A stretch of DNA of 22,448 bases from a virus. Below the pieces are notes generated by a model that saw only the letters and a program-made list of their open reading frames with translations, was not told the DNA's origin and searched no databases. Positions 8,210 through 22,448 of the stretch are shown piece after piece. Both the position numbers and the translations under genes were made by a program. Numbering within the stretch: position 1 is the stretch's first letter; every line of letters starts with the position of its first letter. The stretch is taken from the IMG/VR virus record IMGVR_UViG_3300022935_001985, positions 1-22,448 of that record. One strand, written 5' to 3'.

Positions 8210-8446
8210 ATGGACGAAAGTCATGTCACCGAAATCTGGCAACTTTTTAAAGAATATTTAGATAAGAAAAATATAGAAATTGCCGCAGAACGTTTTATCG
8301 ATTTAATGGCAGATTACGGAGTAGGCGACGATACCTTAATCTCGGCATTAGGCGCAGACCCGCATTTAGATAATGCTATTAATTACTTTTTGGATTTGGA
8401 TGATGTTGATAAATTCGACGACGAAATAGACGATTGGGATGAGTAA
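8210..8446 (+). CDS. Small acidic protein of unknown function
   Basis: This 78-residue protein is not recognised. It is strongly acidic; the last 19 residues (from FLDLDDVDKF to DDWDE) are mainly Asp/Glu. The N-terminal part looks helical (VTEIWQLFKEYLDKK, AAERFIDLMADYG). Its start is 3 bases after uvsX, with GAGGAG as ribosome binding site, and its stop overlaps the uvsY start (TAATG), so it is co-translated with both recombination genes. The acidic tail could bind a basic partner or mimic DNA, but this is only inference from composition and context. A real gene is likely, given tight coupling and good initiation signals. Confidence 0.75.
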   Translation: MDESHVTEIWQLFKEYLDKKNIEIAAERFIDLMADYGVGDDTLISALGADPHLDNAINYFLDLDDVDKFDDEIDDWDE

Positions 8447-8901
8447 TGGGATGGTATAGTGAAGTATCTAGAGATATTTCTAAAATTCCTGATGCAGTTG
8501 CATTTTTTGAAAACGAACTTAGACAAGCAAAACAAGAGTGTAAACTTGTAGGTAATGTTGAAAAAAGTGCGGCTGCTATGCCAGGCATTGTTGAACATCG
8601 TTTTAATCAGCTTCAAGAAATTGAAGCAATCTTAAACTATTTGAATATTGAGCTACGTAGATTGCGTAGCTCTTTCTTCAAAAAATATCTTGAAAATTAT
8701 CAACGAGCTCTGTCAAGCCGTGATGTTGAAAAATACGTTGACGGCGAGGCAGACGTTGTTGATTATGAAAAAATTATCAATGAATTTGCACTTCTGCGCA
8801 ACAAATGGTTAGGAGTCTTAAAGGCCCTGGACCAGAAGCAATGGCAGATAACTAATGTTGTAAAGCTTCGTGTAGCAGGAATGGAAGATGCAACTTTATG
8901 A
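8446..8901 (+). CDS. uvsY: UvsY-like recombination mediator
   Basis: UvsY loads UvsX onto gp32-coated single-stranded DNA. The 151-residue protein is close in size to T4 UvsY (137) and is mostly helical. It contains YVDGEADVVDYEKIINEF (about 97-114) and a basic C-terminal part (KWLGVLKALDQKQW, VVKLRVAGMED), a pattern I associate with UvsY of marine T4-like phages. Direct similarity to T4 UvsY is weak, so the call rests on this pattern plus position two genes after uvsX. The start overlaps the upstream stop (TAATG) and the stop overlaps the next start (ATGA), so the sugar cluster is translationally coupled to it. Confidence 0.7.
   Translation: MGWYSEVSRDISKIPDAVAFFENELRQAKQECKLVGNVEKSAAAMPGIVEHRFNQLQEIEAILNYLNIELRRLRSSFFKKYLENYQRALSSRDVEKYVDGEADVVDYEKIINEFALLRNKWLGVLKALDQKQWQITNVVKLRVAGMEDATL
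8650..8672 (+). other. Stable hairpin inside uvsY coding sequence
   Basis: GAGCTACG (8650-8657) and CGTAGCTC (8665-8672) form a perfect 8-bp stem with a 7-base loop, followed by TTTCTTC. The mixed T tract makes it a weak terminator at best; attenuation, mRNA processing or chance are all possible. Confidence 0.4.
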
Positions 8902-9614
8902 TATTTAACGCATGGTGGTTAGGCAGTGAAAAAGCTCAAGGAAATTTTGGTGACATACTCACTCCGCACATTTTAGACCATTATAAAATAAAATATAAAT
9001 TTGAACCAAATTATGTAAATGCCACATTAATTTGTGTTGGCAGTATTGCTAGGCGTGCCGGAGTCAACACTACTGTAATTGGAAGCGGTATAATTTCTAA
9101 AGGAGACAGGATTACTCCTGGAGCCAATTGGAGATTTGTCCGCGGTCCTCATACACAGCATCATGTTAACAGATTAGGAGGCAACTGTCCAGCAGTATTT
9201 GGTGATCCTGCATTGTTACTACCAAAAATTTATAACCCTACAATTACAAAAAAACATAAAATAAGTTATGTGCCTCATAATGTAGATTTCGCAGAAATAT
9301 CACAAAAATATGAAAATGTTATCAACTTAAGAACAAGTGATTATAAAAGAGTTGTAGATAAAATTTTAGAATCAGAGTTTATCGTCTCAAGTAGTCTTCA
9401 TGGATTAATTGTAGCACATGCTTATGGAATACCTGCTGCCTGGGCCAGATCACATAATAATTTAAAAGGTGATAATGTTAAATTCGAAGATTATTTCGCA
9501 AGTGTTAATCTTAATTGCGAAGTAAGTTCTTACGATTCTCCTAAATTTTGTTTACCAAACAATATTAACATAACTACTATTGAAGAGATTTTAGAGGAAA
9601 TTGCAAATTTATGA
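8898..9614 (+). CDS. Polysaccharide pyruvyl transferase family protein
   Basis: Members of this family (PF04230) add pyruvate ketals to sugars of surface polysaccharides, and some act as glycosyltransferase-like enzymes. The 238-residue protein shows the family pattern: NFGDILTPHIL (16-25), VIGSGI (60-65), VRGPHT (81-86), FGDPALLLP (101-109), VPHNVD (125-130) and SSSLHGLIVAHAYGIP (164-179, with H168-G169). It is shorter than typical family members (about 300-400). The start overlaps the uvsY stop (ATGA), so it is the first gene of the sugar island. A second family member lies at 16309. The substrate cannot be read from sequence. Confidence 0.82.
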   Translation: MIFNAWWLGSEKAQGNFGDILTPHILDHYKIKYKFEPNYVNATLICVGSIARRAGVNTTVIGSGIISKGDRITPGANWRFVRGPHTQHHVNRLGGNCPAVFGDPALLLPKIYNPTITKKHKISYVPHNVDFAEISQKYENVINLRTSDYKRVVDKILESEFIVSSSLHGLIVAHAYGIPAAWARSHNNLKGDNVKFEDYFASVNLNCEVSSYDSPKFCLPNNINITTIEEILEEIANL

Positions 9615-10381
9615 AGGTTGTAATATTAGCCGGAGGACTTGGTACACGCTTACATGAAGAAACTAATATGCGTCCTAAACCGATGGTTGAAATAGGAGGT
9701 AAACCTATTCTTTGGCATATTATGAAAATTTACTCTGCACACGGAATAAATGATTTTGTTGTCTGCTGTGGATACAAAAGTAATATTATAAAAGATTATT
9801 TTATTAACTATGCTGCAAAAAATTCCGATGTAGAAGTAAACACAAAATCAGGCAATGTAAGATTTTACAATAACCAATTAGAAGACTGGAATATTAATCT
9901 TGTAGAAACAGGCGAAGATTCTATGACTGGTGGCCGACTAAAACGAGTTAAAGAACATATTAAAGACGAAGAAGCGTTTTGCTTTACATATGGCGATGGT
10001 GTAGGGAATGTAGATATAACCAAGTCTATAGAATTCCATAAAACACACAAAAAATTAGTTACTATGACAACAGCTTATGCCCCTGGAAGATTTGGTAATT
10101 TAGAGATAACTGGGGACAAGATAACTAAGTTTCAAGAAAAACCAGAAGGCGATGGAGCAATGATAAATGCAGGATTTTTTGTTTTATCTCCTCAAGTTTT
10201 AGATTACATAGACGACGATACTACTACATGGGAAGAAAATCCTCTTCATAAATTAACGTCTGAAGGACAGGTCATGGCATACAAACATACAGGTTTTTGG
10301 AGGCCTATGGATTCGCTTCCTGACAAAAATGCATTAGAAAAACTATGGAAAGGTGAAGAAGCACCTTGGAGGATCTGGTAA
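9611..10381 (+). CDS. rfbF: Glucose-1-phosphate cytidylyltransferase
   Basis: This enzyme makes CDP-glucose from CTP and glucose-1-phosphate, the entry step to CDP-linked 3,6-dideoxyhexoses. The 256-residue product has the usual family length. The nucleotide-binding signature is LAGGLGTRLHEET (6-18) with RPKPMVEIGGKPILWHI (21-37). GDG (128-130) and WRPMDSLPD (230-238) hold the probable metal ligands D129 and D234. MINAGFFVL (184-192) is the sugar-binding segment. Start and stop overlap the neighbours (ATGA and TAATG). The gene symbol follows the Salmonella O-antigen pathway (also called ddhA). Confidence 0.93.
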   Translation: MKVVILAGGLGTRLHEETNMRPKPMVEIGGKPILWHIMKIYSAHGINDFVVCCGYKSNIIKDYFINYAAKNSDVEVNTKSGNVRFYNNQLEDWNINLVETGEDSMTGGRLKRVKEHIKDEEAFCFTYGDGVGNVDITKSIEFHKTHKKLVTMTTAYAPGRFGNLEITGDKITKFQEKPEGDGAMINAGFFVLSPQVLDYIDDDTTTWEENPLHKLTSEGQVMAYKHTGFWRPMDSLPDKNALEKLWKGEEAPWRIW

Positions 10382-11430
10382 TGAATGCAGATTTTTGGAA
10401 AAATAAAAAAGTTTTAATAACCGGACATACAGGATTTAAAGGTAGCTGGTTGTGTACATGGTTACAGTTTTTAAATGCAGAAGTATGTGGATATAGTTTA
10501 GACGCTCCTACTACCCCTAATAATTTTACAGAGTCAAAAGTGAGTAGTCAAATGTTGTCCATACTGGACGACACAAGAAATAGAGATGCTATTTTTAGAA
10601 TTGTTAATACATTTCAACCTGAAATAATTTTCCACTTAGCAGCTCAACCTTTGGTAATAGAATCTTACAAAGATCCTTTTACTACATATGAAACAAATGT
10701 CATGGGCACATTAAATGTATTAGATGCAGCAAGACAATGTAATAGTGTAAAGGCAATTGTTAATATAACAACAGATAAATGCTACGAAAATAAAGAATGG
10801 CCCTATCCATATAGGGAAAACGAGCCTATGGGGGGTTACGATCCTTACAGTAGTAGTAAAGGTTGCTCAGAACTGTTAACAAGTGCGTACAGAAGAAGTT
10901 TTAATTTGCCACTTGCATCAGCAAGAGCAGGCAATGTAATAGGAGGCGGAGACTGGGCACAGGATAGAATTGTACCAGATGCGCTAAAGGCTTTTGGCAA
11001 AAATGAAGAACTAATAGTGCGGTATCCTGATGCTATTAGACCTTGGCAGCATGTATTAGAACCATTATCTGGATATATGGTATTAGCAGAAAACCTTTAC
11101 AATAACAAAGAATTTGCCGACGGCTGGAATTTTGGTCCGTTTGATGAAGATGCAAAGCCTGTTAAAGACATATTAAATTATATGACCTCTAAATGGGGGA
11201 ACAATGTAACTTGGACTCATGATAAACAAGAACATTTACACGAAGCTCATTATCTAAAATTAGATATTAGTAAAGCAAAGACCTACTTAAACTGGCGGCC
11301 TAGATGGCGGTTAGAACAAGCACTTAATGCTACAATAGAATGGCACAAAGCCTGGCTAAAAGGTGAAGATATGAGAAAAGTTTCTATAATGCAAATAGAA
11401 AAATTTATGAACGGAGAAACAAATGGTTGA
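10381..11430 (+). CDS. rfbG: CDP-glucose 4,6-dehydratase
   Basis: The enzyme converts CDP-glucose to CDP-4-keto-6-deoxyglucose with tightly bound NAD+. The 349-residue protein is an extended SDR: TGHTGFKG (14-21) binds NAD, TTDKCYEN (130-137) carries the Thr-Asp-Lys active-site triad that marks CDP-glucose rather than dTDP-glucose dehydratases, and YSSSK (156-160) holds the catalytic Tyr/Lys. NVIGGGDWAQDRIVPD and RPWQHV are also typical. I chose ATG 10381, which overlaps the rfbF stop (TAATG) and has GGAGG 8 bases upstream, over an upstream in-frame TTG at 10366. It overlaps rfbH by 8 bases. Also called ddhB. Confidence 0.93.
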   Translation: MNADFWKNKKVLITGHTGFKGSWLCTWLQFLNAEVCGYSLDAPTTPNNFTESKVSSQMLSILDDTRNRDAIFRIVNTFQPEIIFHLAAQPLVIESYKDPFTTYETNVMGTLNVLDAARQCNSVKAIVNITTDKCYENKEWPYPYRENEPMGGYDPYSSSKGCSELLTSAYRRSFNLPLASARAGNVIGGGDWAQDRIVPDALKAFGKNEELIVRYPDAIRPWQHVLEPLSGYMVLAENLYNNKEFADGWNFGPFDEDAKPVKDILNYMTSKWGNNVTWTHDKQEHLHEAHYLKLDISKAKTYLNWRPRWRLEQALNATIEWHKAWLKGEDMRKVSIMQIEKFMNGETNG

Positions 11431-12622
11431 AAAAATATCATACGCAAAGACAGTATACGGACAAGCAGAAATAGATGCTGTCGTAAAATGTTTAGAACAA
11501 TCTACTCAAATGGGTGTCCATAGTAGACAGTTTGAAAAACAAATTGCAGATTTATTCGACAAAAAAGAATGCTTATACGTGAACAGTGGATCTAGTGCGT
11601 TACACATAGGCATGGAGGCATTTGATTTTCCAGAAGGTAGCGAAGTAATTACACCGGCATTAACTTTTGGTACAACATTATCATGTATTTTAAAAAATAA
11701 GTTAATTCCTGCATTTGTTGATGTAGAACCAAGAACATATTGTATTGATGCTAGTAAAATAGAATCTATGATTACAGAAAAAACCGTTGCTATCCTAGCA
11801 CCAGATTTATTAGGTAATGTTTGCGACTGGCGTAGGATAAGAGAAATTGCAGACAAGCATGGATTAAAAGTTTTACATGATAGTGCTGATACGTTAGGAG
11901 CAACTGTAGATGGTGAAAATATAGGAAAGTATAGTGATATGAGTATTACAAGTTTCTACGGTTCTCATATTATTAATTGTGCAGGAAACGGCGGTGCCTT
12001 ATGTTTAAACGATGAAAAGGTTATTGAAAAAGCAAAACTTCTACGTAGTTGGGGTAGAAGTAGTAGTTTATTTGACGAAGCAAGTGAAGCAATAGAGAAT
12101 AGATTTAATATAGAATTAGATGGACTAGAATACGATGCGAAATTTGTTTTCGCCATTCCGGGCTACAATCTAGAAGGTAACGAAATGGGAGCAGCCTTTG
12201 GACTAGTACAACTAGAAAATTTAAAAAATAATATCGATGTAAGAAGAACAAATTATCATAAACAAATTAATTACTTTTCAAAATATAGAGATTATTTTGT
12301 AAATCCAGTCGAAGCTCAAGATGTTACTACAGGCTGGTTAGCATTTCCAATTTTAATTAAAGAAGATGCTCCGTTTACACGTAAGCAATTTCAAATTTAC
12401 TTAGAAAAAAGAGATATACAAACAAGAGTTTGTTTCACAGGTAATGTTTTACGGCAGCCAATGGCACAAGGGATTACAATGCGTAAACACAAAGCAGGAT
12501 ATCCTAATGCAGATGCTGTTATGGAACGTGCTGTGCTTTTGCCGTTACACCACGGAATGACAGACGAAATGTTTGAACGTTTACATAATACTATTGATCA
12601 ATTTATAGCAGAACATACATGA
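11423..12622 (+). CDS. rfbH: RfbH-like CDP-4-keto-6-deoxyglucose 3-dehydrase, without iron-sulfur cysteines
   Basis: RfbH/E1 enzymes of the DegT/DnrJ fold remove the C3 hydroxyl from CDP-4-keto-6-deoxyglucose using PMP; E1 then uses a [2Fe-2S] cluster to pass electrons. The 399-residue product has the fold pattern NSGSSALHIGMEAF (54-67), a cofactor Asp in LHDSADTLG (D153), and SFYGSHIINCAGNGGA (177-192). H182 stands where aminotransferases have the PLP lysine, as in E1 and ColD. The E1 cluster motif is C-X57-C-X1-C-X7-C; at the matching places I find A155, S214, L216 and I224, so no cluster is expected. It may work in a ColD-like way or have another partner. Position after rfbG supports this substrate. 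It is about 38 residues shorter than Salmonella RfbH. Confidence 0.85.
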   Translation: MVEKISYAKTVYGQAEIDAVVKCLEQSTQMGVHSRQFEKQIADLFDKKECLYVNSGSSALHIGMEAFDFPEGSEVITPALTFGTTLSCILKNKLIPAFVDVEPRTYCIDASKIESMITEKTVAILAPDLLGNVCDWRRIREIADKHGLKVLHDSADTLGATVDGENIGKYSDMSITSFYGSHIINCAGNGGALCLNDEKVIEKAKLLRSWGRSSSLFDEASEAIENRFNIELDGLEYDAKFVFAIPGYNLEGNEMGAAFGLVQLENLKNNIDVRRTNYHKQINYFSKYRDYFVNPVEAQDVTTGWLAFPILIKEDAPFTRKQFQIYLEKRDIQTRVCFTGNVLRQPMAQGITMRKHKAGYPNADAVMERAVLLPLHHGMTDEMFERLHNTIDQFIAEHT

Positions 12623-13416
12623 AAGTATTAATCACAGGAAGCAATGGATATTTAGGAAAAGCTATATCTAAAAGTCTGTTTCTTACAGGTAATGCTATCG
12701 GACATTACACTAGAAAAACCGAAGTTAATTTTATCCAACAATTTAATCCTGATGTTGTTGTACATACTATTTGTTCTTATGGTCGCAACGGAGAATCTCC
12801 TAACCAAATATATCAGTCCAATCTTAATTGCGGTATAGAAGTACTTTCGGAATGCAAAAAATTAGACAAACGGGTTACATTTATAAACTGTGGTACTTCT
12901 TTAAAATTTAACACAAATTTATATTCTATAAGTAAAGGTCAATTTGTTGAATACGGCAAGTTTGCTTCTAGTGATCAATTACAATTCCTTAATATGAATC
13001 TACAACATTTTTATGGCCCAGGTGCTACAAATAATTTTATTTCCTATGTTTTTGAAAATTGTTTTACAAATAAAGACTTAGCATTAACTGAAGGAACACA
13101 ACAAAGAGACTTTATCTATATAGACGATGTTATAACAGCATTTAAAACTGTAATTGAAAAACGCAATACATTACTAGATTTTGAAAACATAGATGTAGGC
13201 ACAGGTGTTACTACACAGTTAAAAGATGCAATAACAAAAATTAAAGAAATAACAAAATCAAGCAGTGCCCTTGAGTTTGGCAAAGTACCTATGAGAGAAA
13301 ATGAAGAAATGATTATGTCTGCAAATACAAAGTTTCTAAACAAATTAGGATGGACATATAAAAATGATATCAACAAAGGATTAGCATTAGTAAAGGATTA
13401 TTATGGTAAAAGATAA
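12619..13416 (+). CDS. NAD(P)-dependent sugar reductase/epimerase, RfbJ (CDP-abequose synthase)-like
   Basis: The 265-residue protein is an extended SDR with TGSNGYLG (6-13), YSISK (102-106, Tyr/Lys pair), NLQHFYGPG (127-135), QQRDFIYIDDV (161-171) and DVGTGVTTQLKDA. These segments match, as I recall them, CDP-abequose synthase (RfbJ: YGPG, IRDFIFVDDVV, VGTGAGVSLKDF, EFGAI...NEIM, LGW/MGW near the end). RfbJ reduces the C4 ketone of CDP-4-keto-3,6-dideoxyglucose, which is exactly the step expected after rfbF-rfbG-rfbH. Whether the product is abequose, paratose or another stereoisomer cannot be decided. The start overlaps the rfbH stop (ATGA). Confidence 0.8.
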   Translation: MKVLITGSNGYLGKAISKSLFLTGNAIGHYTRKTEVNFIQQFNPDVVVHTICSYGRNGESPNQIYQSNLNCGIEVLSECKKLDKRVTFINCGTSLKFNTNLYSISKGQFVEYGKFASSDQLQFLNMNLQHFYGPGATNNFISYVFENCFTNKDLALTEGTQQRDFIYIDDVITAFKTVIEKRNTLLDFENIDVGTGVTTQLKDAITKIKEITKSSSALEFGKVPMRENEEMIMSANTKFLNKLGWTYKNDINKGLALVKDYYGKR

Positions 13417-14104: not shown

Positions 14105-14881
14105 ATGAAAGATAGAGTTGTTTTAGTCACTGGTGGTTTCGATCCTCTCCATAGTGGACATATAGAATATTTTAAGGAAGCAAAAAAACTAGGATCTAAA
14201 TTAATCGTAGGTTTAAATAGCGACGAATGGCTTACTCGCAAAAAAGGACGTCCGTTTATGCCTATAGAAGAACGTGCTGCGATAATTAAAGAACTTGCAG
14301 TGGTCGATAAAGTCATAAGCTTCGATGACTCAGATGGCAGTGCTTGTGGAGCTATTTTTAAAGTTTTAAGTACAACACCATCTGGTACAAAGATAATTTT
14401 CGCCAATGGCGGGGATAGAACAAATACAACTACTCCAGAATATGAAACATATGGCGATATGAATTATGTAGAATTTGTCTGGGGAGTAGGTGGCGAAGAT
14501 AAAAAAAATTCTTCTAGTTGGATACTAGAAGAATGGAAAAATCCAAAAACTATAAGATCATGGGGTTGGTACAGAGTATTAGATCATCAGCCAGACAAGG
14601 GATACAAAGTAAAAGAACTGGTAATTGCTCCAGGTAAACATCTTAGTGACCAACGACACAAGTATAGAAACGAACATTGGTATGTGTTAGATAACGAAGT
14701 TACAATAGCTCTAGAAGATGATAGAGGAAAAAATGGAGTTAGATTAGAAAAAAATCATAATGTAATTATCGGTAATAATGTTTGGCACAAAGCCATGAAT
14801 GATACCGATAAGCACACTCACATACTCGAAGTGCAGTTTGGGGAACTTTGTGAAGAAGAAGATATTGAAAGAAGAGATTAA
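14105..14881 (+). CDS. Fusion: HldE/TagD-type nucleotidyltransferase with mannose-6-phosphate isomerase-type cupin
   Basis: Residues 1-140 are a small cytidylyltransferase domain: TGGFDPLHSGH (9-19) with the HxGH active-site motif, MPIEERAAIIKELAVVDKV, and SSSWILEEW (136-144) in place of the C-terminal STT/STS motif. Residues about 151-258 are a cupin like the C-terminal domain of type II phosphomannose isomerases (ManC/AlgA): SWGWYRVLD, VKELVIAPGKHLSDQRH, EHWYVL, VWHKA, LEVQFGE, EEDIERRD. Likely metal ligands are Q183, H185, E190 and H228. The two activities would suit isomerising and activating a sugar phosphate, but the substrate is unknown. The order is unlike ManC, where a GT-A-type pyrophosphorylase precedes the cupin. 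The stop overlaps the next start (TAATG). Confidence 0.85.
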   Translation: MKDRVVLVTGGFDPLHSGHIEYFKEAKKLGSKLIVGLNSDEWLTRKKGRPFMPIEERAAIIKELAVVDKVISFDDSDGSACGAIFKVLSTTPSGTKIIFANGGDRTNTTTPEYETYGDMNYVEFVWGVGGEDKKNSSSWILEEWKNPKTIRSWGWYRVLDHQPDKGYKVKELVIAPGKHLSDQRHKYRNEHWYVLDNEVTIALEDDRGKNGVRLEKNHNVIIGNNVWHKAMNDTDKHTHILEVQFGELCEEEDIERRD

Positions 14882-15552
14882 TGAAAATATTTGTAGGTTA
14901 TGACACAAGAGAAGATATTGCATACCAAGTTTGCAAGCACAGTATTTTAAACAAGCAACCACTAGCAGATGTGCGCCCTTTAAAGCAGCAAGAGCTACGT
15001 GACGCAGGCTGGTATACACGTAGTTTAGATAAACTTGCAAGCACCGAATTTACATTTACACGTTTTCTTATTCCAGAACTTACAAACTTTACTGGCTGGG
15101 CGTTGTTTATGGATTGTGATATGATCCTTACAACAGATATTAAAGAGTTGTTTGACCAAGCAGACGACAAGTATGCTGTAATGTGTGTGAAACACGATTA
15201 TACACCAAAAGAAGGCACAAAGATGGATGGGCAAAAACAAACTATCTATCCACGTAAGAATTGGTCAAGTGTAATGCTGTTTAATTGTGCGCATCCTAGC
15301 AATGCTGCACTTACAATGGACCTAGTTAATAGTCCAGAAATTAACGGTGCATACTTGCACAGATTTAGTTGGTTAAAAGATGAAGAAATTGGAGAATTGG
15401 ATCACACTTGGAATTATCTTGTCGGTGTTTACGATGACATTGATACACCCAATCTAATCCATTATACAGAAGGCGGACCGTGGTTTGAAAACTACAGAGA
15501 CTGTGAGTTTAACGAACTTTGGAAACAAGAACTTTATGATATGTTTAAGTAA
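14881..15552 (+). CDS. Glycosyltransferase, GT-A fold (GT8-like)
   Basis: The 223-residue protein starts MKIFVGYDTREDIAYQVCKHS, a nucleotide-binding opening of GT-A enzymes that take several hexoses. The metal-binding DxD motif is FMDCDMI (D78, D80). WSSVMLFNC and LIHYTEGGPW near the end match the GT8-like layout of Asn/His-Gly contacts. Sampled stretches have higher GC (about 45% in 14941-15000) than the flanking sugar genes, suggesting a different origin. It is coupled to the gene before it (TAATG) and overlaps the next by 17 bases. Confidence 0.75.
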   Translation: MKIFVGYDTREDIAYQVCKHSILNKQPLADVRPLKQQELRDAGWYTRSLDKLASTEFTFTRFLIPELTNFTGWALFMDCDMILTTDIKELFDQADDKYAVMCVKHDYTPKEGTKMDGQKQTIYPRKNWSSVMLFNCAHPSNAALTMDLVNSPEINGAYLHRFSWLKDEEIGELDHTWNYLVGVYDDIDTPNLIHYTEGGPWFENYRDCEFNELWKQELYDMFK

Positions 15553-16309
15553 AAACAAAACTGACGATTATGTAAATAAATTTGCATTTGGGGCAGGATT
15601 ACAAGTCGAAGATTATGATTATGATTTTGGCGACAACACCATTCTTATAAGAAGCATGGGTAAACGTAAACTTATCGACTGGTGTTTAAAAAACAATCAT
15701 ACATTCTATTATATGGATAGTGGTTATATTGGCAACTATAAATCTGATGATAATCCTATGGGTTGGAAATATTATCATCGAATTGTAAAAAATGATGTGC
15801 AGCACGGAAAAATAATTAATAGGCCAGATGACAGATGGAAAAGGTTAAAGTATCCTATTATGCCTTTAAAAAAAGGACGCCATATTCTGCTTGTTACACC
15901 TTCCGAAAAGCCTTGTAAATTTTATGGTATAGATAGAGATACTTGGGTAGCAGATACTATAATAGAAATAAAAAAATATACAGATAGACCTATAGTTATA
16001 AGAGACAAACAACCTAGACCTAACAGATTAACAAAGACTATATTTGAAGATTTAGAAAATTGTCATGCAATGGTTACATATCAGAGCATAGCAGCAGTAG
16101 AAAGTGTACTGTACGGCGTCCCGTCATTTACACTAGCGCCGACGGCAGCAGATCCTGTATGTGATAAAGATCTAAGCCTGATCGAAAACCCTACATTACA
16201 AGACAAAGATAAAATATATAAATGGGCTTGCCATTTAGCATACGGGCAATTTCATGTAAACGAATTTAAAGACGGAACAGCATATAAAATGCTAATGAAG
16301 GAGACATAA
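15536..16309 (+). CDS. KpsS/GT-B-like surface-glycan protein, paralogue 1
   Basis: From ATG 15536 the protein has 257 residues; an in-frame TTG at 15485 would overlap the previous gene by 68 bases and is not used. The C-terminal half contains HILLVTPSE, W..DTIIEIKKYTDRPIVIR, CHAMVTYQSIAAVESVLYGVPSF and SLIENPT. This pattern recalls capsule-synthesis (KpsS/KpsC) and related GT-B transferases, where the TYxS..A.ES...GVP segment binds the donor. The same blocks recur in the proteins at 17229 and 19750. The N-terminus (MGKRKLIDWCLKNNHTFYYMDSGY) differs from the other two. No donor or acceptor can be assigned. Confidence 0.65.
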   Translation: MICLSKNKTDDYVNKFAFGAGLQVEDYDYDFGDNTILIRSMGKRKLIDWCLKNNHTFYYMDSGYIGNYKSDDNPMGWKYYHRIVKNDVQHGKIINRPDDRWKRLKYPIMPLKKGRHILLVTPSEKPCKFYGIDRDTWVADTIIEIKKYTDRPIVIRDKQPRPNRLTKTIFEDLENCHAMVTYQSIAAVESVLYGVPSFTLAPTAADPVCDKDLSLIENPTLQDKDKIYKWACHLAYGQFHVNEFKDGTAYKMLMKET

Positions 16310-17232
16310 TGGCAAGGCCGATAGTAGTATATAGAAAAGACGAAAATAATGTTGGTGATATAGCAAGTGATCCTTTACAATATTTTATACCCGGACAGTA
16401 TGATACAATAGATATACTTGATCTGCCAATAGCAAGATGGAATAGTGACCAGCCTATTGTTGTAGGAGGGGGAGGTTTGCTGGGCAATGATTTTATAGGA
16501 GATAATTTATATAAATTATTATCGCATAATGATTATAATCAATTAGCAAACCTAGTAAACAATGCTTGGACTGCTTCGGATCCAAATCACCAAGATTTGC
16601 AACAAAAGTTTATGGCAGACCTACATTCTCTGGTAAACTCGTACAAACAAAAACTAGCTACAAAAGTTACAGCACCGAGGTATATATGGGGTGCAGGACA
16701 TAATCAAGACACTACAAAGAGAGTAAAATTTATAGAATATCCGTCAATCCTTAGTATGTTTGATAAAGTTGCTGTGCGAGATTATAAACAACAATATGAT
16801 TATGTTCCTTGTGCAAGTTGTATGCATCCTGCATTTAGGAAAAAGTATGCAATAAAAAATGATATTATATGGTTTGAGCACAAAAAGCAACTTGTTAAAA
16901 GTACAGAATTTGCCACCATGTCGATTCCTAGATTTATAAACAGTGGAGCAAATATCGAACAAGTAGCAGAACTTTTAGGAAGTGCTAATACTATTATTAC
17001 AAACAGTTATCATGGTGCATATTGGGGGACGCTACTAAAGAAAAAAGTTATTGTAGTTGAAGCATGGAGTAGTAAATTTTATTATTTAAAACATAATCCT
17101 ATTTTTGCACCTAAAGGATACTTTCCTGTACACGAACTTGCAGAACAATGTGAGATATACCCTTCTGCTATAGATGAGTGTGTTGCACTTAACCAAAAAT
17201 ATTTTGATGAAATTAGAGACACGTTAAAATGA
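16309..17232 (+). CDS. Polysaccharide pyruvyl transferase family protein, second copy
   Basis: The 307-residue protein shows the PF04230 pattern: NNVGDIASDPL (13-23), IVVGGGGLLGNDF (50-62), YIWGAGHNQD, VAVRDY, an ASCMHPAF segment, and ITNSYHGAYWGTLLKKKVIVVE with H235-G236. It is longer than the first copy at 8898 and not closely similar outside these blocks. A good ribosome binding site (AAGGAG, 16298-16303) precedes the TAATG overlap with the upstream stop; its own stop overlaps the next start (ATGA). It sits between two members of the KpsS-like family. Confidence 0.78.
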   Translation: MARPIVVYRKDENNVGDIASDPLQYFIPGQYDTIDILDLPIARWNSDQPIVVGGGGLLGNDFIGDNLYKLLSHNDYNQLANLVNNAWTASDPNHQDLQQKFMADLHSLVNSYKQKLATKVTAPRYIWGAGHNQDTTKRVKFIEYPSILSMFDKVAVRDYKQQYDYVPCASCMHPAFRKKYAIKNDIIWFEHKKQLVKSTEFATMSIPRFINSGANIEQVAELLGSANTIITNSYHGAYWGTLLKKKVIVVEAWSSKFYYLKHNPIFAPKGYFPVHELAEQCEIYPSAIDECVALNQKYFDEIRDTLK

Positions 17233-18146
17233 AGTATAAAGTAACAGCATACATGAATGGAGTTCCTAATCCTAAAAAAAATCAAAACAAAATTAATATT
17301 TTGCGAAACTTTATAAATGGGGTTAACAAAAAAGGAGACGTTGGATCGTTGCATTTTTCAAACAATCTTGTTCCAGCAGATGTAGCAATGATACAAGGGT
17401 TTGTACATGCCGGCAGCGAAAGAGTTCCTCATTTAATGCTTAGGAAAAAAGCCATAGATTATCAAAAACAAAATCAAAGAAAATCGTTAATTGTTGACAG
17501 TAACTTGTTTAATTACAAAGTGGGCAAAGATCATTCGTTACAGTACTTGAGATATAGTTTTGATGGAGTTTTTCCTACTACTGGAAATTATTTTGACAGA
17601 ATAGTTGATCCTGAAAGATGGAGGAAAATATCTCAAGATTTAGGAGTCAGACCTAAAGAATGGCGCACCAAAGGAAACCATATTTTAATTGCAACTCAAC
17701 GCAACGGTGGCTGGAGCATGCAGGGTACTGATGTTGTGCAATGGTTAGATCAAACAATAGATATTATAAAACAACACACAGACAGACCTATTTTGGTAAG
17801 GGGGCATCCGGGTGATAAACGTGCAAAAGAATATCTTGCGAACAAAGGGTATAACCTAAGCGTTTCTAATAGCATTGTTGATGATTTTAAAAATGCATGG
17901 GCAACTGTTACATACAATAGTAGTCCTGGGGTAGCAAGTGCTATAGAAGGTATTCCTGTTTTTGTTTTAGATCCTAATCCTGCAATTAGCCAGGCTTTTC
18001 CTGTAGCAAACACAGATATATCAAAAATAGAAAATCCGGAAATATTCAAAAGGCAAGATTGGCTAGAAAGACTTGCGATGAGTCATTGGAAATTTTCCGA
18101 AACATCTTCGGGAGAGGCTTGGGAACACATAAGGAAATTCGTATGA
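17229..18146 (+). CDS. KpsS/GT-B-like surface-glycan protein, paralogue 2
   Basis: The 305-residue protein shares with its relatives HILIATQRN, W.DQTIDIIKQHTDRPILVRGHPGD, WATVTYNSSPGVASAIEGIPVFVLDP, SKIENPE and a final W...GEAWEHIR. The N-terminal half (SLHFSNNLVPADVAMIQGFVH, SLIVDSNLFNYK) looks like a separate lobe, as in GT-B enzymes. Donor, acceptor and catalytic residues cannot be named. The start and stop both overlap their neighbours (ATGA each). Confidence 0.65.
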   Translation: MKYKVTAYMNGVPNPKKNQNKINILRNFINGVNKKGDVGSLHFSNNLVPADVAMIQGFVHAGSERVPHLMLRKKAIDYQKQNQRKSLIVDSNLFNYKVGKDHSLQYLRYSFDGVFPTTGNYFDRIVDPERWRKISQDLGVRPKEWRTKGNHILIATQRNGGWSMQGTDVVQWLDQTIDIIKQHTDRPILVRGHPGDKRAKEYLANKGYNLSVSNSIVDDFKNAWATVTYNSSPGVASAIEGIPVFVLDPNPAISQAFPVANTDISKIENPEIFKRQDWLERLAMSHWKFSETSSGEAWEHIRKFV

Positions 18147-18871
18147 AAATAAAATGGTCAGGTTTAGCAGATGCTGTTTATTGGGAAGGCATAGCAAAAT
18201 ATTGTGTGCCCAGCTGGGAAAAATTACCAGGTAAAAAATACATAGTGCATGATAGTAATCTAATAAACTATAATTTTTTAAATATTGTTAATTGGGCAGA
18301 AGTAGGCAACTACGAAAGCGGTTTTTGGAAAATACAAAGAGAACGTAAAAAGACAAATAACTTTTGGCGTAAAATGCAAAGCCAAGTTTGGGCAGTAAGG
18401 AATTTAACAAATTGTGATTTTGTTGCGTTATTAGATACTGATATAGAAGTTTTAGATTTTGATCAAATTGCTTGGGAAAATCAAATGGATCAATTTGTTG
18501 AAAGTGGACATGTATGGGCTACAGGAAGATCTCAAAGTAGATTGCATGACAGCGGAATGATAGTTTTAAACATGAAACATCCACAACTTCATCAGCTAAT
18601 AGACGAGTATGAAAATATATGGAATTCTGGAGAGATATTTAATTTACGAAAAAGTTATGACGGAATAGCAGTTGAAAGTTTGTTTGACAAGTGGCCTTCT
18701 TATAAAATTATGAATATAGATTGGGGATCAGGGTTTCATACGTACGATGTAGGATTTGTACATTATGGTAGTAAAATTCCTAAACAACGTAGAATTGCAT
18801 GGCCTGGAGATGGCAAAAGTCTAGTCGAAGATTTTACTAAAAATCTAACAGTAAAACATTATAAAAATTAA
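18143..18871 (+). CDS. Glycosyltransferase, GT-A fold (putative)
   Basis: From ATG 18143 (ATGA overlap, AAGGA upstream) the protein has 242 residues; an upstream in-frame TTG at 18059 is inside the previous gene and is rejected. FVALLDTDIEVLDF (93-106) carries the DxD motif at D98 and D100, and SGMIVLNMKHPQL (about 141-153) matches the acceptor-side block of nucleotide-diphospho-sugar transferases. The ending FHTYDVGFVHYGSK resembles the His-Gly segment that contacts the donor phosphates. It is the last plus-strand gene before the reversed gene, and their stop codons overlap. Confidence 0.65.
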   Translation: MKIKWSGLADAVYWEGIAKYCVPSWEKLPGKKYIVHDSNLINYNFLNIVNWAEVGNYESGFWKIQRERKKTNNFWRKMQSQVWAVRNLTNCDFVALLDTDIEVLDFDQIAWENQMDQFVESGHVWATGRSQSRLHDSGMIVLNMKHPQLHQLIDEYENIWNSGEIFNLRKSYDGIAVESLFDKWPSYKIMNIDWGSGFHTYDVGFVHYGSKIPKQRRIAWPGDGKSLVEDFTKNLTVKHYKN

Positions 18872-19716
18872 CTAGTCCAATATGATTCCGAACGGTTAAC
18901 CATTATATCAGATCTTTTAGATTTGCCTGCCACTTTACGGTTACCCTTCATATGGTCTATCCATTTACCTAGTTTAGTATTGATCAACGGATGTCCGCCA
19001 CCGCCTGTCTTGGCTTCACGCAAGTACATTTCTGCACTATAATCTAATACGTTAGGTGTTTTAAGTTTCATCTTGTTTACTATATGGCCGAATATAAAAC
19101 TGTCATGCCATTCGACTAATTTAAACATTCCGTTATCTGCATCTTCGTACATGCGTTCAAATTCTTGTAAAAATCGCTTGCAAACTTCGTCTTTTAGATT
19201 CATACCATAAAAGCCGCATTCTGGCCAAGTTTGTGATCCTTTACCACGTCCTACATATGTAATCCAGCTTGTTTCTGGTAATAGTTCTTTAAACTGATCA
19301 TAACTCCAGTCGCTGTGTACATAAGTATCAGCATCCATCCATACACACCAATCTTTAGACCTTTCACAAGCATCGAACACTGCATATACCTTGTTTGCAA
19401 ATCTTACAGCATCCCATTTAAACTCTTTGTTCCAATCTTTACGTCCTTGACGTGCAGGATGATTTGCTATATTGCCGTTTGCATGTGGAACATTTTTCCA
19501 ACGTTCTTTAAATGCATTAAGTTTTGGTAATACTTCTTTAGCATTTAAAACTTTGATATTTTCACACAAAGGATCAACAACTGGAGAACAATCTTCTGCA
19601 TACACTAATAGTTTGATACGCTTGTCTACACGCTTTGCAAAGCTGTCTAAAAATCTCTGCCCATATAAATCTAAACCAGGTTTATGGAAAGTTGTTACCA
19701 CAGTTATGTCTGTCAT
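18868..19716 (-). CDS. Glycosyltransferase, GT-A fold, on the reverse strand
   Basis: This is the only minus-strand gene seen. The 282-residue protein starts ITVVTTFHKPGLDLYG and has a DxD motif in WCVWMDADTYVHSDW (D128, D130). SWITYVGRGKGSQTWPECGFYGMNL and VEWHDSFIFGHI are further GT-like segments. An AAAGGA ribosome binding site lies just upstream on the minus strand. Its stop overlaps that of the gene at 18143 within TTAA, and no terminator hairpin is visible between these convergent genes. Sampled GC (about 50% in 18961-19020) is above its neighbours. Either it was inserted in reverse or it is expressed separately from the late operon. Confidence 0.75.
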   Translation of the reverse strand: MTDITVVTTFHKPGLDLYGQRFLDSFAKRVDKRIKLLVYAEDCSPVVDPLCENIKVLNAKEVLPKLNAFKERWKNVPHANGNIANHPARQGRKDWNKEFKWDAVRFANKVYAVFDACERSKDWCVWMDADTYVHSDWSYDQFKELLPETSWITYVGRGKGSQTWPECGFYGMNLKDEVCKRFLQEFERMYEDADNGMFKLVEWHDSFIFGHIVNKMKLKTPNVLDYSAEMYLREAKTGGGGHPLINTKLGKWIDHMKGNRKVAGKSKRSDIMVNRSESYWTS

Positions 19717-19749
19717 TTTTAATCCTTTGTAAATATAGTAAGGTATTTA
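19717..19749. promoter_or_regulatory. 33-bp divergent intergenic region
   Basis: The gap holds start signals for both strands. Plus strand: TAAATA (19730-19735), like the late motif, then TAAGG before the ATG pair at 19750/19753. Minus strand: TACTATATTTAC, a possible -10 region, then AAAGGA before ATG 19716. There is no room for full separate promoters, so they must overlap or one gene is read from farther off. Confidence 0.4.
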
Positions 19750-20601
19750 ATGATGAAATTTAGTTTATGGACACAATATGGCGCACTCAATAGTACTCCT
19801 GTTTTTGATGCTTTTAGATATGGCGCTCGTTCTCTTGGCTTTGATACTGTGGATAATGGCGATGCCGATGTTGATGTTATATGGAGTGTACTATTTCACG
19901 GTAGAATGGCTCCGAACAAAGCTATATGGGAGAAAAATTTAAAAAGTTCAAAACCAACTATAGTGCTAGAAGTTGGCGGTATTAAACGAGGAACAACATG
20001 GAAGGTAGGGTTAAATGGAATTAATAGAACTGCTTACTTTGGTGATAGCGGCAATGATCGCACTCGCGCTGATAGCTTGGGATTGGTTTGTAAACCTTGG
20101 CGGACAACCGGCGATTTTATTTTAATATGTGGACAGCATGACAAAAGTCTACAGTGGCAAAACATGCCACGCATGAGCCAATGGATTATGGATACTATTG
20201 AAGAAGTACAGAAACATACTAATAGACCTATTGTTTTTAGACCACATCCCCGTTGTAGGCTTGATGCTATAGAACACCAATACCGTAATGTGCGGAGACA
20301 AGATCCTATAAAAATTATAGGTAGTTATGATGATTTTGATATGGCATTTAATAATGTATGGACTACTATAAGCTACTCTAGTAACCCGGGTATACACAGC
20401 ATACTAAACGGTGTTCCAGCGTTTGTAGGGCCCGCATCGTTAGCGTATGACGCCGCTAATGACATAGATTTCTTACATGATATAGAAAATCCATATATGC
20501 CAGATAGACAACAATGGTTAAATGACTATGCCTGGACAGAATTTACAGTTGAAGAAATTTCTTCAGGTTTGCCACTTAAACGCTTGACTTCTATGCTATA
20601 A
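19750..20601 (+). CDS. KpsS/GT-B-like surface-glycan protein, paralogue 3
   Basis: The start is either of two adjacent ATGs (19750 or 19753), giving 283 or 282 residues; the second has the better spacing to TAAGG. Shared family blocks are KPWRTTGDFILICGQHD, W.MDTIEEVQKHTNRPIVFRPHPR, WTTISYSSNPGIHSILNGVPAFVGP and HDIENP. The block KPWRT...ILI...Q also occurs in paralogue 2 (KEWRTKGNHILIATQ), so these two are closest. The N-terminal lobe (VDVIWSVLFHGRMAPNK, TIVLEVGGIKRG) is again different. It lies apart from its relatives, beyond the reversed gene, and ends just before a new promoter. Confidence 0.65.
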   Translation: MMKFSLWTQYGALNSTPVFDAFRYGARSLGFDTVDNGDADVDVIWSVLFHGRMAPNKAIWEKNLKSSKPTIVLEVGGIKRGTTWKVGLNGINRTAYFGDSGNDRTRADSLGLVCKPWRTTGDFILICGQHDKSLQWQNMPRMSQWIMDTIEEVQKHTNRPIVFRPHPRCRLDAIEHQYRNVRRQDPIKIIGSYDDFDMAFNNVWTTISYSSNPGIHSILNGVPAFVGPASLAYDAANDIDFLHDIENPYMPDRQQWLNDYAWTEFTVEEISSGLPLKRLTSML

Positions 20602-20618: not shown

Positions 20619-21872
20619 ATGTTAACACTAGAAGATTACATAGAAATTTTAGCTAATTTTAGAACAGAAGAGTTTTCTGGAGATTTTGTTGTATCCAAAT
20701 CTGATTATAACCTAATACATAGCCTAGCAAGACAAAGTATAAATGGTATAGGATTTACAGATAGACAAATGGATCTAGTTAAAAAGAAAGTTTTAGAGTA
20801 TAAAGATTTGTTTGTCACTAATAATATACAAGTGTCTGACAACTTAGATCGATTACGTAACCCTATTAGAGAGATAGACAGATCTAGATGGATTAAAATA
20901 GTAGACAGTTTACCTAATATAGTTTATGAAGCATCGAGCGGACCTTTTATCGCTGTAAGATTTGTTTTTAATAAAAAATTAATTACTGCACTTGAAGGAT
21001 TGAGGTCAGAAGGTATAGAAAGTCATTATGACAAAGAAAATAAAATACATTACTACTCTTATAGTGAAAGAAATTTATTTACAATAGTTAATATATTAAA
21101 AGATAAAAATTTTGATATGGACGACAAAGTCCAACAAATTTATGAGGTTTGCGAAAATATGAATAATAATAAATCATCATATATTCCTGGAGTATATAAT
21201 TTAAAATTAAGAAATTTAAATAAAAATGCAATCGATTACATAATTTCTGATATAGGATCTCCTTCTATAGACAACTTAGCACTGTTAAGGGATAGAAAAC
21301 AATTATACGGCCTAGAACATTTCGACGATACTGATTTAGAAAAATCATATCAATCTTTGTCTATATTATCAAAAAAAATTATTACCAGAACAAAAAAAGA
21401 AATACTTGTCAACAAAACAAATTATACACTTGATAATCTTATAGAATCAATGTTAGAACTGTATAGATTACCTATACTTTTTATATTAGATAGTACAAAC
21501 GATTTTGATAATTTAGTAGAATCTTATAATAGCTTAAAAAATATTTTACCTAGAAACAGTTTTTCTGTTCTATACAGAAAAGAAAACAAAAACAAAGACG
21601 AAGAAGCGTTCAACGCATATATTAAAGAAAATTCTCTTAATGCTAGTCTTGACACAAATCCAAAAATAGTGTATACTAGCATAGATAAATTTCCAAAAAC
21701 ATTATTAAAAACTCACTGGAAACCACGTGTAGTAATTGTGTTAGGAGATAGAATGGCAATGCAAAGATCTAAGTATCAGTATTATATAAATGATAATGAC
21801 TTGGTGGTACACTACCGTAAAGATGATAAATCTACATATGCATTCGAATTGCAAAGGATAGAAAAAATTTAA
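20619..21872 (+). CDS. AT-rich gene of unknown function coupled to uvsW
   Basis: I do not recognise this 417-residue protein. It is Lys/Asn/Ile-rich with likely helices throughout and no clear Walker, zinc or membrane motif. Segments that may define a family are GIGFTDRQMDLVKKKVLEYKDLF (about 47-69, broken here as GIGFTDRQM and VKKKVLEYKDLF), GPFIAVRFVFNKKLI, IPGVYNLKLRNLN and, near the end, PRVVIVLGDRMAMQRSKYQY. The alternating beta/alpha pattern after residue 290 (LPILFILDST, FSVLYRKE, PKIVYTSI, RVVIVLGD) could be a nucleotide-binding-like fold that lost its P-loop. The stop overlaps the uvsW start (TAATG) and it has its own early-type promoter, which points to DNA metabolism. GC is very low (18-20% in sampled lines). 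Confidence 0.75.
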   Translation: MLTLEDYIEILANFRTEEFSGDFVVSKSDYNLIHSLARQSINGIGFTDRQMDLVKKKVLEYKDLFVTNNIQVSDNLDRLRNPIREIDRSRWIKIVDSLPNIVYEASSGPFIAVRFVFNKKLITALEGLRSEGIESHYDKENKIHYYSYSERNLFTIVNILKDKNFDMDDKVQQIYEVCENMNNNKSSYIPGVYNLKLRNLNKNAIDYIISDIGSPSIDNLALLRDRKQLYGLEHFDDTDLEKSYQSLSILSKKIITRTKKEILVNKTNYTLDNLIESMLELYRLPILFILDSTNDFDNLVESYNSLKNILPRNSFSVLYRKENKNKDEEAFNAYIKENSLNASLDTNPKIVYTSIDKFPKTLLKTHWKPRVVIVLGDRMAMQRSKYQYYINDNDLVVHYRKDDKSTYAFELQRIEKI

Positions 21873-22448
21873 TGGCTAGTTGTAAACTAATAATTGAAGA
21901 TGAAGTAAACATCAAACTAGAAGGACTAGAAGTTGACGTACGGAGAAAACTGGCGAATGCTCTCAAATTCGAAGTGCCTTACGCACGATATATGCCTCAG
22001 TATAAGCTCGGGCGTTGGGATGGCAAAGTTGCTTTCTTTGGGATTGGCGGCACTGGCTACGTTAACCATCTTGATACTATTGTCGAAGTACTTGAAAAAA
22101 ATCGTGTCTCGATTGTAGACATTGAAGATAGACGTCATCCAATTAAATTAGATCTACAACCTATTACAGAACGTTATTGGGCCGATCAAGGTGTTGTATG
22201 GCCAAAGGGTCATCCGGCAGAAGGCGAAGAAATTATACTACGTGACTATCAAGTCGAAGCTATTAACAACTTTCTACAAAACCCACAGAGCTTGCAAGAA
22301 ATTGCAACAGGCGCAGGTAAAACAATTACAACTGCAACACTGTCACATATTAGTGAGCCGTACGGACGTAGTCTTGTAATTGTGCCTAACAAATCACTTG
22401 TTACACAAACAGAAGAAGACTATATCAATTGTGGGTTAGACGTAGGGG
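21872..22448 (+). CDS. uvsW: UvsW-like DNA/RNA helicase, 5' part
   Basis: UvsW is the T4-family SF2 helicase that resolves branched DNA and R-loops, ending origin-dependent replication. The window holds 192 residues; the frame is open to the edge. Residues 1-120 match the UvsW N-terminal domain (FEVPYARYMPQYKLGRWDGKV, about 33-53, given in part). IILRDYQVEAI (121-131) is the Q-like motif, ATGAGKT (145-151) is Walker A, and LVIVPNKSLVTQT (168-180) is motif Ia. The start overlaps the upstream stop (TAATG). Sampled GC (about 48% in 21961-22020) contrasts sharply with the gene before it. Confidence 0.93.
   Translation, partial: MASCKLIIEDEVNIKLEGLEVDVRRKLANALKFEVPYARYMPQYKLGRWDGKVAFFGIGGTGYVNHLDTIVEVLEKNRVSIVDIEDRRHPIKLDLQPITERYWADQGVVWPKGHPAEGEEIILRDYQVEAINNFLQNPQSLQEIATGAGKTITTATLSHISEPYGRSLVIVPNKSLVTQTEEDYINCGLDVG

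Follow-up and report, generated by a model that had tools for sequence, protein, structure and literature searches.

Three ancient paralogues without the catalytic aspartate in a marine T4-like phage: a probable branch of the beta-Kdo transferase clan

The window analysed here (the whole 22,448-base stretch of one virus record) is a fragment of a T4-like marine phage, and between uvsY and a gene that we take to be uvsW it harbours a cassette of sugar genes with three members of a single glycosyltransferase-like family, designated genes 1, 2, and 3. Their coordinates and frames, given in an earlier note made from the letters of the window, were correct, and all three open reading frames (ORFs) were intact. 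The sites listed below are named after their counterparts in beta-Kdo (3-deoxy-D-manno-oct-2-ulosonic acid) transferases.

15536..16309, plus strand: gene 1 (P0001, subfamily F0), 257 amino acids (aa), intact
Sites of gene 1: Asp61 (base position) 15716-15718; P122 (Q position) 15899-15901; P126 (nucleophile position) 15911-15913; K158 (HP-His position) 16007-16009
17229..18146, plus strand: gene 2 (P0002, subfamily F1), 305 aa, intact
Sites of gene 2: Asp90 17496-17498; Q157 17697-17699; G161 (nucleophile position) 17709-17711; H193-P194 17805-17810
19750..20601, plus strand: gene 3 (P0003, subfamily F2), 283 aa, intact
Sites of gene 3: E74 19969-19971; Q129 20134-20136; S133 (nucleophile position) 20146-20148; H166-P167 20245-20250

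The three genes were confirmed as true full-length paralogues with similarity far beyond chance: pairwise BLASTP gave 83.2, 57.8, and 88.2 bits (E 3e-23, 2e-14, and 7e-25), while 60 shuffles of the partner all stayed within 22.3 bits, and comparison of any of the three with six sugar genes nearby gave no more than 20.0 bits. Four shared blocks were ordered alike in all three genes, as the earlier note had described, and the C-terminal donor half held most of them; in the block written there as hILh..Q/S, gene 1 had P where genes 2 and 3 had Q. The subfamily profiles aligned over both halves (gene 3 versus gene 2, columns 3-282 versus 13-314, E 5e-45; gene 1 versus gene 2, columns 52-268 versus 84-317, E 1e-35; gene 1 versus gene 3, columns 20-269 versus 20-286, E 8e-30), and therefore the N-terminal halves, which had been said to differ, were diverged rather than swapped, and did not represent different domains. 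The chief difference of gene 1 from the others was its shorter N-terminus.

A profile of the three genes collected 267 ORFs (231 different) from 80 viral loci plus the window, and clustering at 45% identity gave 13 clusters, numbered F0 to F12 for this analysis; four loci that were copies of the window (L081 to L084) were left out of all counts. Genes 1, 2, and 3 fell in F0, F1, and F2, respectively; they are members of three ancient subfamilies, and their duplications are old. F0 preceded F1 in all 62 loci with both, and F1 preceded F2 in all 46 loci with both. The proposal that duplication was followed by insertion or shuffling thus held for the genes between the copies, which are exchanged, but the copies themselves are ancient subfamilies in fixed order and not recent scattered duplicates.

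Predicted structures of genes 1 and 2 (AlphaFold mean predicted local distance difference test scores 95.7 and 96.3, respectively) were compared with known folds, as the earlier note had advised, and Foldseek ranked KpsC, WbbB, and KrkA first for both. In VIA-align (best chain of each enzyme), gene 2 matched KpsC at Z 14.3 (253 aligned residues; root-mean-square deviation, rmsd, 3.8), WbbB at 13.5, and KrkA at 12.2, while gene 1 matched them at Z 12.3 (222 aligned, rmsd 4.4), 11.7, and 9.9, respectively; the best other entries reached Z 10.1 for gene 2 (a partial match, 139 aligned) and 8.6 for gene 1, and other GT-B enzymes led the structural matches after these three. The models of genes 1 and 2 thus display a GT-B fold with whole-length likeness to KpsC, WbbB, and KrkA, and gene 3 is predicted to share this fold by homology to the two modelled genes. 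Since these enzymes came first along the whole length, the label 'KpsS/GT-B-like' was right at the level of fold (KpsC/KpsS type); membership of KpsS by sequence was rejected, since Pfam PF05159 (Capsule_synth) had no match over the gathering score in the window. The same model gave four weak matches among 116 relatives (best E 0.015), and PHROGs had no family for genes 1 to 3 and three single weak matches among these relatives.

At the level of sequence, the whole-family profile had one significant match in the PDB, namely WbbB (E 7.6e-4). Profile-profile comparison with KpsC (Viterbi alignment, eight KpsC modules, reversed KpsC as control) gave E 4.6e-8 for the whole-family profile (control 0.61) and E 5.7e-9 for the QXXXD-type profile (control 0.72); the alignment placed QLAGDAS on QTRGDAS and HP on HP, and in the whole-family comparison G161 of gene 2 fell on the Asp. 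The best matches among predicted viral structures included a Caulobacter phage protein and 'capsule polysaccharide biosynthesis' proteins of Tetraselmis virus 1. Four of the latter stood among the best in BFVD (A0A2P0VNK4, A0A2P0VP54, A0A2P0VP74, and A0A2P0VP72); this is a giant virus of a green alga, and Tetraselmis walls contain Kdo-type sugar acids.

In characterised beta-Kdo transferases, the C-terminal domain binds CMP-Kdo (CMP, cytidine monophosphate), an Asp takes the Kdo while the His of an HP motif protonates the leaving group, and in a second step a Glu activates the acceptor, which displaces the Asp. These residues are Asp232 (nucleophile), His265 (of HP, protonating the phosphate), and Glu158 (base) in WbbB (PMC9587256), with the KpsC counterparts Asp160 of QXXXD, the HP His, and Glu66 (PMC10148158); D160G, D160A, and D160S variants of KpsC have been studied, and D160A was inactive (PMC10148158).

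The residues at these positions were counted by subfamily, with ORFs below 150 aa left out (52 of 55 counted in F1, 41 of 42 in F2, and all 83 in F0). The Asp at the nucleophile position, overlooked in the earlier note, was absent from all three genes (P126, G161, and S133) and from their entire subfamilies (0/83 in F0, 0/52 in F1, and 0/41 in F2), and the HP motif was present in genes 2 and 3 and absent from gene 1. Three patterns were fixed or nearly so: (i) F1 had Q in 52/52, G at the Asp position in 52/52, and H in 51/52 (one gap); (ii) F2 had Q, S at the Asp position, and H in 41/41 each; and (iii) F0 had P at the Q position in 83/83, mostly P at the Asp position (P 66, A 11, L 3, S 2, and V 1), and K (50) or R (33) at the HP-His position. 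F5 resembled F0 and F6 resembled F1 in residue pattern, and F3, F4, and F7 kept Q, D, and H in all 29 members (14/14, 9/9, and 6/6). Outside this last count, among five small clusters, F8, F9, and F11 had the Asp, while F10 and F12 had neither it nor the acidic base residue. The proposed base position was acidic without exception in the larger clusters, being D in F0, F1, F5, and F6 and E in F2, F3, F4, and F7. Phage MW202713 had the full signature, and the pair in Caulobacter phage C1 and two pairs in bacterial genomes each consisted of one HP-type and one Lys-type gene.

A full-length tree (100 rows; at most 16 members plus the window gene each from F0, F1, and F2; trait columns removed; root arbitrary) required two changes of Asp and two of His, while a KpsC-rooted tree of the C-terminal part had a backbone without resolution and long branches meeting at the root; the change at the nucleophile position may have been either loss or gain. 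In the window proteins, the fold and most probably also the donor site are those of beta-Kdo transferases; as the defining Asp is absent, these proteins are not to be filed as retaining beta-Kdo transferases.

The reading favoured here, at a probability only slightly above one half (about 0.55), is that the family forms a phage branch within the clan of beta-Kdo transferases, and that its three core members act without double displacement, by direct transfer from a CMP-Kdo-type donor, on a core glycan. Genes 1 to 3 would be compact cytoplasmic GT-B glycosyltransferases in a phage-centred branch of the clan of KpsC (GT107), WbbB (GT99), and KrkA (GT140), with F3, F4, F7, and the rarer groups predicted to be ordinary retaining Kdo-type transferases. 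Because the Asp is absent, the two-step route of KpsC would be closed to them unless another residue serves, and no invariant acid was found in the nucleophile loop (columns 157-163) of F0, F1, or F2. Genes 2 and 3 keep the donor-binding half (Q, HP, and Ser motif) and the acidic residue, with Gly or Ser at the nucleophile position. Since Gln, HP, and this acidic residue remain, these two would most simply work in one inverting step, the acceptor attacking C2 of CMP-Kdo (or of a similar CMP-ulosonate) directly, much as in inverting sialyltransferases. The donor half of the known enzymes has been traced to a sialyltransferase-like inverting ancestor (PMC9587256). In gene 1, Lys/Arg may take over the phosphate contact; lacking both Q and HP, it may not share the donor of genes 2 and 3, and its donor is less certain, so that the idea of a donor-binding half common to all three stands for genes 2 and 3 and is weakened for gene 1. 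The further proposal that QXXXD paralogues are retaining and their Gly/Ser sisters active inverting Kdo-type transferases within one cassette is put forward tentatively, as something possible but not probable.

The three genes were embedded in the following cassette, bounded by uvsY and uvsW:

8446..8901, plus strand: uvsY, left anchor of the cassette (phrog_231, E 3e-16)
9611..13416, plus strand: four cytidine diphosphate (CDP)-deoxyhexose genes, as follows
9611-10381, plus strand: glucose-1-phosphate cytidylyltransferase, over the NCBIfam equivalog cut-off
10366-11430, plus strand: CDP-glucose 4,6-dehydratase, over the NCBIfam equivalog cut-off
11423-12622, plus strand: RfbH-like enzyme, below the NCBIfam equivalog cut-off
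12619-13416, plus strand: reductase/epimerase, below the NCBIfam equivalog cut-off
14105..14881, plus strand: fusion of an HldE-C/TagD-like nucleotidyltransferase and a mannose-6-phosphate-isomerase-type cupin, below the NCBIfam equivalog cut-offs
14881..15552, plus strand: GT8 glycosyltransferase, adjoining gene 1
16309..17232, plus strand: polysaccharide pyruvyl transferase, located between gene 1 and gene 2 in a slot with exchangeable content
18143..18871, plus strand: putative glycosyltransferase without a confident family, located between gene 2 and gene 3 in a slot of variable content (start set within the TTG ORF 18059-18871)
18868..19716, minus strand: putative glycosyltransferase, upstream of gene 3 on the opposite strand
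21872..22447, plus strand: uvsW (named from context and general knowledge), right anchor, cut by the window end

In 31 of the 62 loci, the slot between F0 and F1 held another family member (F3 in 16, F5 in 8, F7 in 6, and F11 in 1). It was empty in 12 loci, and in another 12 it held a pyruvyl transferase, alone or accompanied by one further gene; GT8 filled it in 6 and some other gene in 1. A QXXXD-type paralogue was found there in 23 of the 62; the pyruvyl transferase of the window therefore sits in a slot that other phages fill differently. As for the other neighbours, the nucleotidyltransferase-cupin gene was present in 77 of 81 F0-bearing loci (upstream of F0 in 73 of the 77), 44 of the 47 F2-bearing loci had a homologue of the 18868-19716 gene upstream of F2 in the reverse orientation, and GT8 adjoined or was fused to F0 in 59 of 79 GT8-bearing loci. 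Seven loci (L043, L047, L048, L049, L059, L076, and L079) had true in-frame GT8-F0 fusions, each a single ORF of 550-567 aa, which hints that GT8 and F0 act in sequence. Gene 1 would work with the adjacent GT8, its fusion partner in some phages, and genes 1 to 3 would jointly build a conserved core glycan to which the genes of the exchangeable slots add variable decorations.

These fusions, together with the loss of three donor-site residues in F0 and the inactivity of a D-to-A variant among the solved enzymes (PMC10148158), would also suit a different role, in which the D-less paralogues are pseudoenzymes that scaffold or steer active transferases (GT8 or QXXXD paralogues). We regard this as improbable: 24 of the 46 loci with F0, F1, and F2 had no QXXXD paralogue in the stretch examined, which often leaves such a pseudoenzyme without an active sister to act on, and HP, Gln, and the acidic residue, needless in a dead enzyme, did not vary in F2 and hardly varied in F1.

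The donor of the favoured direct-transfer scheme was approached through kdsA and kdsB, searched with PF00793 (KdsA type) and PF02348 (KdsB type) in 50 records over their whole length, with matches in 7/50 and 6/50, respectively. Six of the seven kdsA-type records were viral contigs (L002, L005, L008, L010, L017, and L022), and they comprise every closely related locus (uvsW identity 79% or more) whose sequence extends over 1.5 kb beyond uvsW, the other close-relative loci ending within 768 bases past it. kdsB directly followed kdsA in five of the six (L008 holds only its start), and L002 ends at kdsA; in this last contig, an S-adenosylmethionine synthetase gene directly precedes kdsA. The pair lies a few kilobases downstream of uvsW (L005, 18967-20428; also L010, L017, and L022). 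The L005 KdsA was assigned by NCBIfam as KDO-8-P synthase (322.8, over the cut-off of 242), and the best NCBIfam family of kdsB was CMP-Kdo synthetase (L088 over the subfamily cut-off, L005 below the cut-off); in L088, the kdsB-like gene (9426-10133) directly follows two F0-like genes. L017 and L002 each carried three family members, as in the window, and therefore kdsA/kdsB occur where the sole KpsC-like enzymes are D-less. With kdsA in six close relatives and kdsB in five, CMP-Kdo would be the likeliest donor.

The same fold might instead serve other cytidine-activated donors, for instance the CDP-deoxyhexose that the rfbFGH-like genes would make, or whatever the nucleotidyltransferase-cupin gene yields; on this view, the Asp was lost because it is useful for ulosonates alone. 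The window itself encodes glucose-1-phosphate cytidylyltransferase and CDP-glucose 4,6-dehydratase, the nucleotidyltransferase-cupin gene is far more constant across F0-bearing loci than kdsA/kdsB, and gene 1 has lost both Q and His; however, the CDP-hexose genes do not recur in other cassettes at comparable identity while F0, F1, and F2 do, L017 combines three D-less genes with kdsA and kdsB, and the Gln that binds the Kdo carboxylate in solved enzymes (PMC12887879) is kept throughout the subfamilies of genes 2 and 3. Such donors are thus judged unlikely, if by no means negligible.

Several observations weigh against CMP-Kdo transfer by a KpsC-related branch. The F0, F1, and F2 profiles taken singly barely reached KpsC (probabilities 33, 21, and 55%, respectively), and those of F1 and F2 had no significant match in the PDB; the link to KpsC therefore comes from the fold and from the QXXXD-type sisters. 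The match of the proposed base (D/E-x-G to Glu66-Asp-Gly of KpsC) was made by motif and order and lies outside the profile alignment. The window holds CDP-sugar genes and not Kdo genes, and ends in uvsW. kdsA was found in none of the other 43 records, including contigs of 149 and 342 kb and the complete genomes of Mosig, C1, and MW202713; with kdsA/kdsB absent from the more distant records, the donor may be host-made or different, and these genes could serve host lipopolysaccharide alone.

Under the favoured core-glycan reading, the target would most likely be a host outer-membrane glycan during infection, or else the virion. A glycan on the virion (e.g., tail or capsid) would fit the relatives beside tail-fibre genes in Caulobacter phage C1, the large terminase gene in MW202713, and terminase and portal genes in the G387 prophage; because these relatives adjoin structural genes, virion decoration is a real, if minor, possibility, although the window cassette sits between recombination genes and pelagimyophage glycosyltransferases have been read as modifiers of the host O-chain (PMC7029224). 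Glycosyltransferases beside uvsX-type genes recall T4, in which light the cassette might glycosylate phage DNA. DNA glycosylation is one known use of phage glycosyltransferases (PMC7029224), but the thymidylate-synthase/dCMP-hydroxymethylase family (PF00303) was found in 0/27 records, a set that covers both large contigs (149 and 342 kb) and three complete genomes of phages (positive control: matches in 9/14 genomes), and pyruvyl transferases and FkbM methyltransferases suit surface glycans; this use was disfavoured and appears very remote.

The window carries a large terminase gene, a gp32-like gene, uvsX, uvsY, the sugar-gene cassette, and uvsW; uvsY was named by profile match, while terL, gp32-like, uvsX, and uvsW are names that we presume from general knowledge and context. 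Its truncated first ORF (3-500) contains a repeated peptide of the VQEPATGQT/FAGGNRQGGEFDTT type. Another IMG/VR contig (L001) has a near-identical stretch (98-100% on the labelled genes), and among named phages, Pelagibacter phage Mosig EXVC030M (Kyanoviridae) is the closest at the protein level and has two relatives of the three-gene family at about 30-35% identity. Public viral contigs contain many members of the family, with at least 542 stretches confirmed. Among 385 genomes of the G001 class, 11 had a family match; the strong matches included a phage contig in a bacterial metagenome-assembled genome (MAG) with uvsW, uvsX, and uvsY (G001) and a prophage (G387), while several of the remaining matches were weak, short, and confined to the HP region. 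A cellular origin of the family was rejected, G001 and G387 being phage and prophage, respectively. In the G387 prophage (L157, G387:C1:729000-745000), portal and terminase genes are a few kilobases away from a family gene pair, a GT9-like gene, and an FkbM methyltransferase. L088 (NZHE01000029.1), a contig of a T4-like phage with five family members, was binned in a Rickettsiales MAG.

The family combines members with the complete signature and three subfamilies that depart from it in a fixed way, and it offers natural comparisons on what the nucleophile is for; it may also be an example from nature of enzymes whose chemistry has changed within one family. If the tentative pairing of retaining and inverting sisters were true, alpha- and beta-linked Kdo would be laid down in one glycan by homologous enzymes, and it would be seen how a retaining mechanism arises from, or reverts to, an inverting one. 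A vague 'LPS (lipopolysaccharide) glycosyltransferase' label in a conserved marine-phage cassette is thereby turned into a testable donor, CMP-Kdo. GT99, GT107, GT118, and GT140 are already described; in the open-licence PMC literature, no paper was found on phage-encoded retaining Kdo transferases, on this branch, or on its D-less members.

Among known systems, the glycosyltransferase genes of pelagimyophages (PMC7029224) are alike in the kind of phage and in their GT8-rich sugar genes, but are described as GT8 and O-chain related, the word 'Kdo' being absent from that text. The GT38 bacterial polysialyltransferases share the GT-B fold and, with genes 2 and 3, the HP motif, and they use a CMP-sugar with inversion, as proposed here for these two genes, but matched gene 2 lower and more loosely (Z 9.3, 196 aligned, rmsd 7.2). 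KrkA (GT140, Escherichia coli K13) is alike in fold (Z 12.2 and 9.9 for genes 2 and 1) but, unlike the window genes, keeps Asp193 and is fused to a ribosyltransferase; KrkA and KpsS1 (GT118) represent divergent families of one clan with common QXXXD and HP (PMC12887879). WbbB (GT99), which terminates O-antigen, is alike in its PDB sequence match (E 7.6e-4) and fold (Z 13.5 and 11.7), while the window genes are shorter and have no counterpart of Asp232. KpsC (GT107, partner of KpsS; both are linker beta-Kdo transferases of group 2 capsules) has two modules, whereas each window gene has one short module in a phage cassette with no capsule exporter seen, without the Asp nucleophile and, in gene 1, also without Gln and His; the likeness lies in the whole-length fold (Z 14.3 and 12.3), in the positions and succession of the QXXXD loop and the HP and Ser motifs, and in the profile link through the QXXXD-type sisters.

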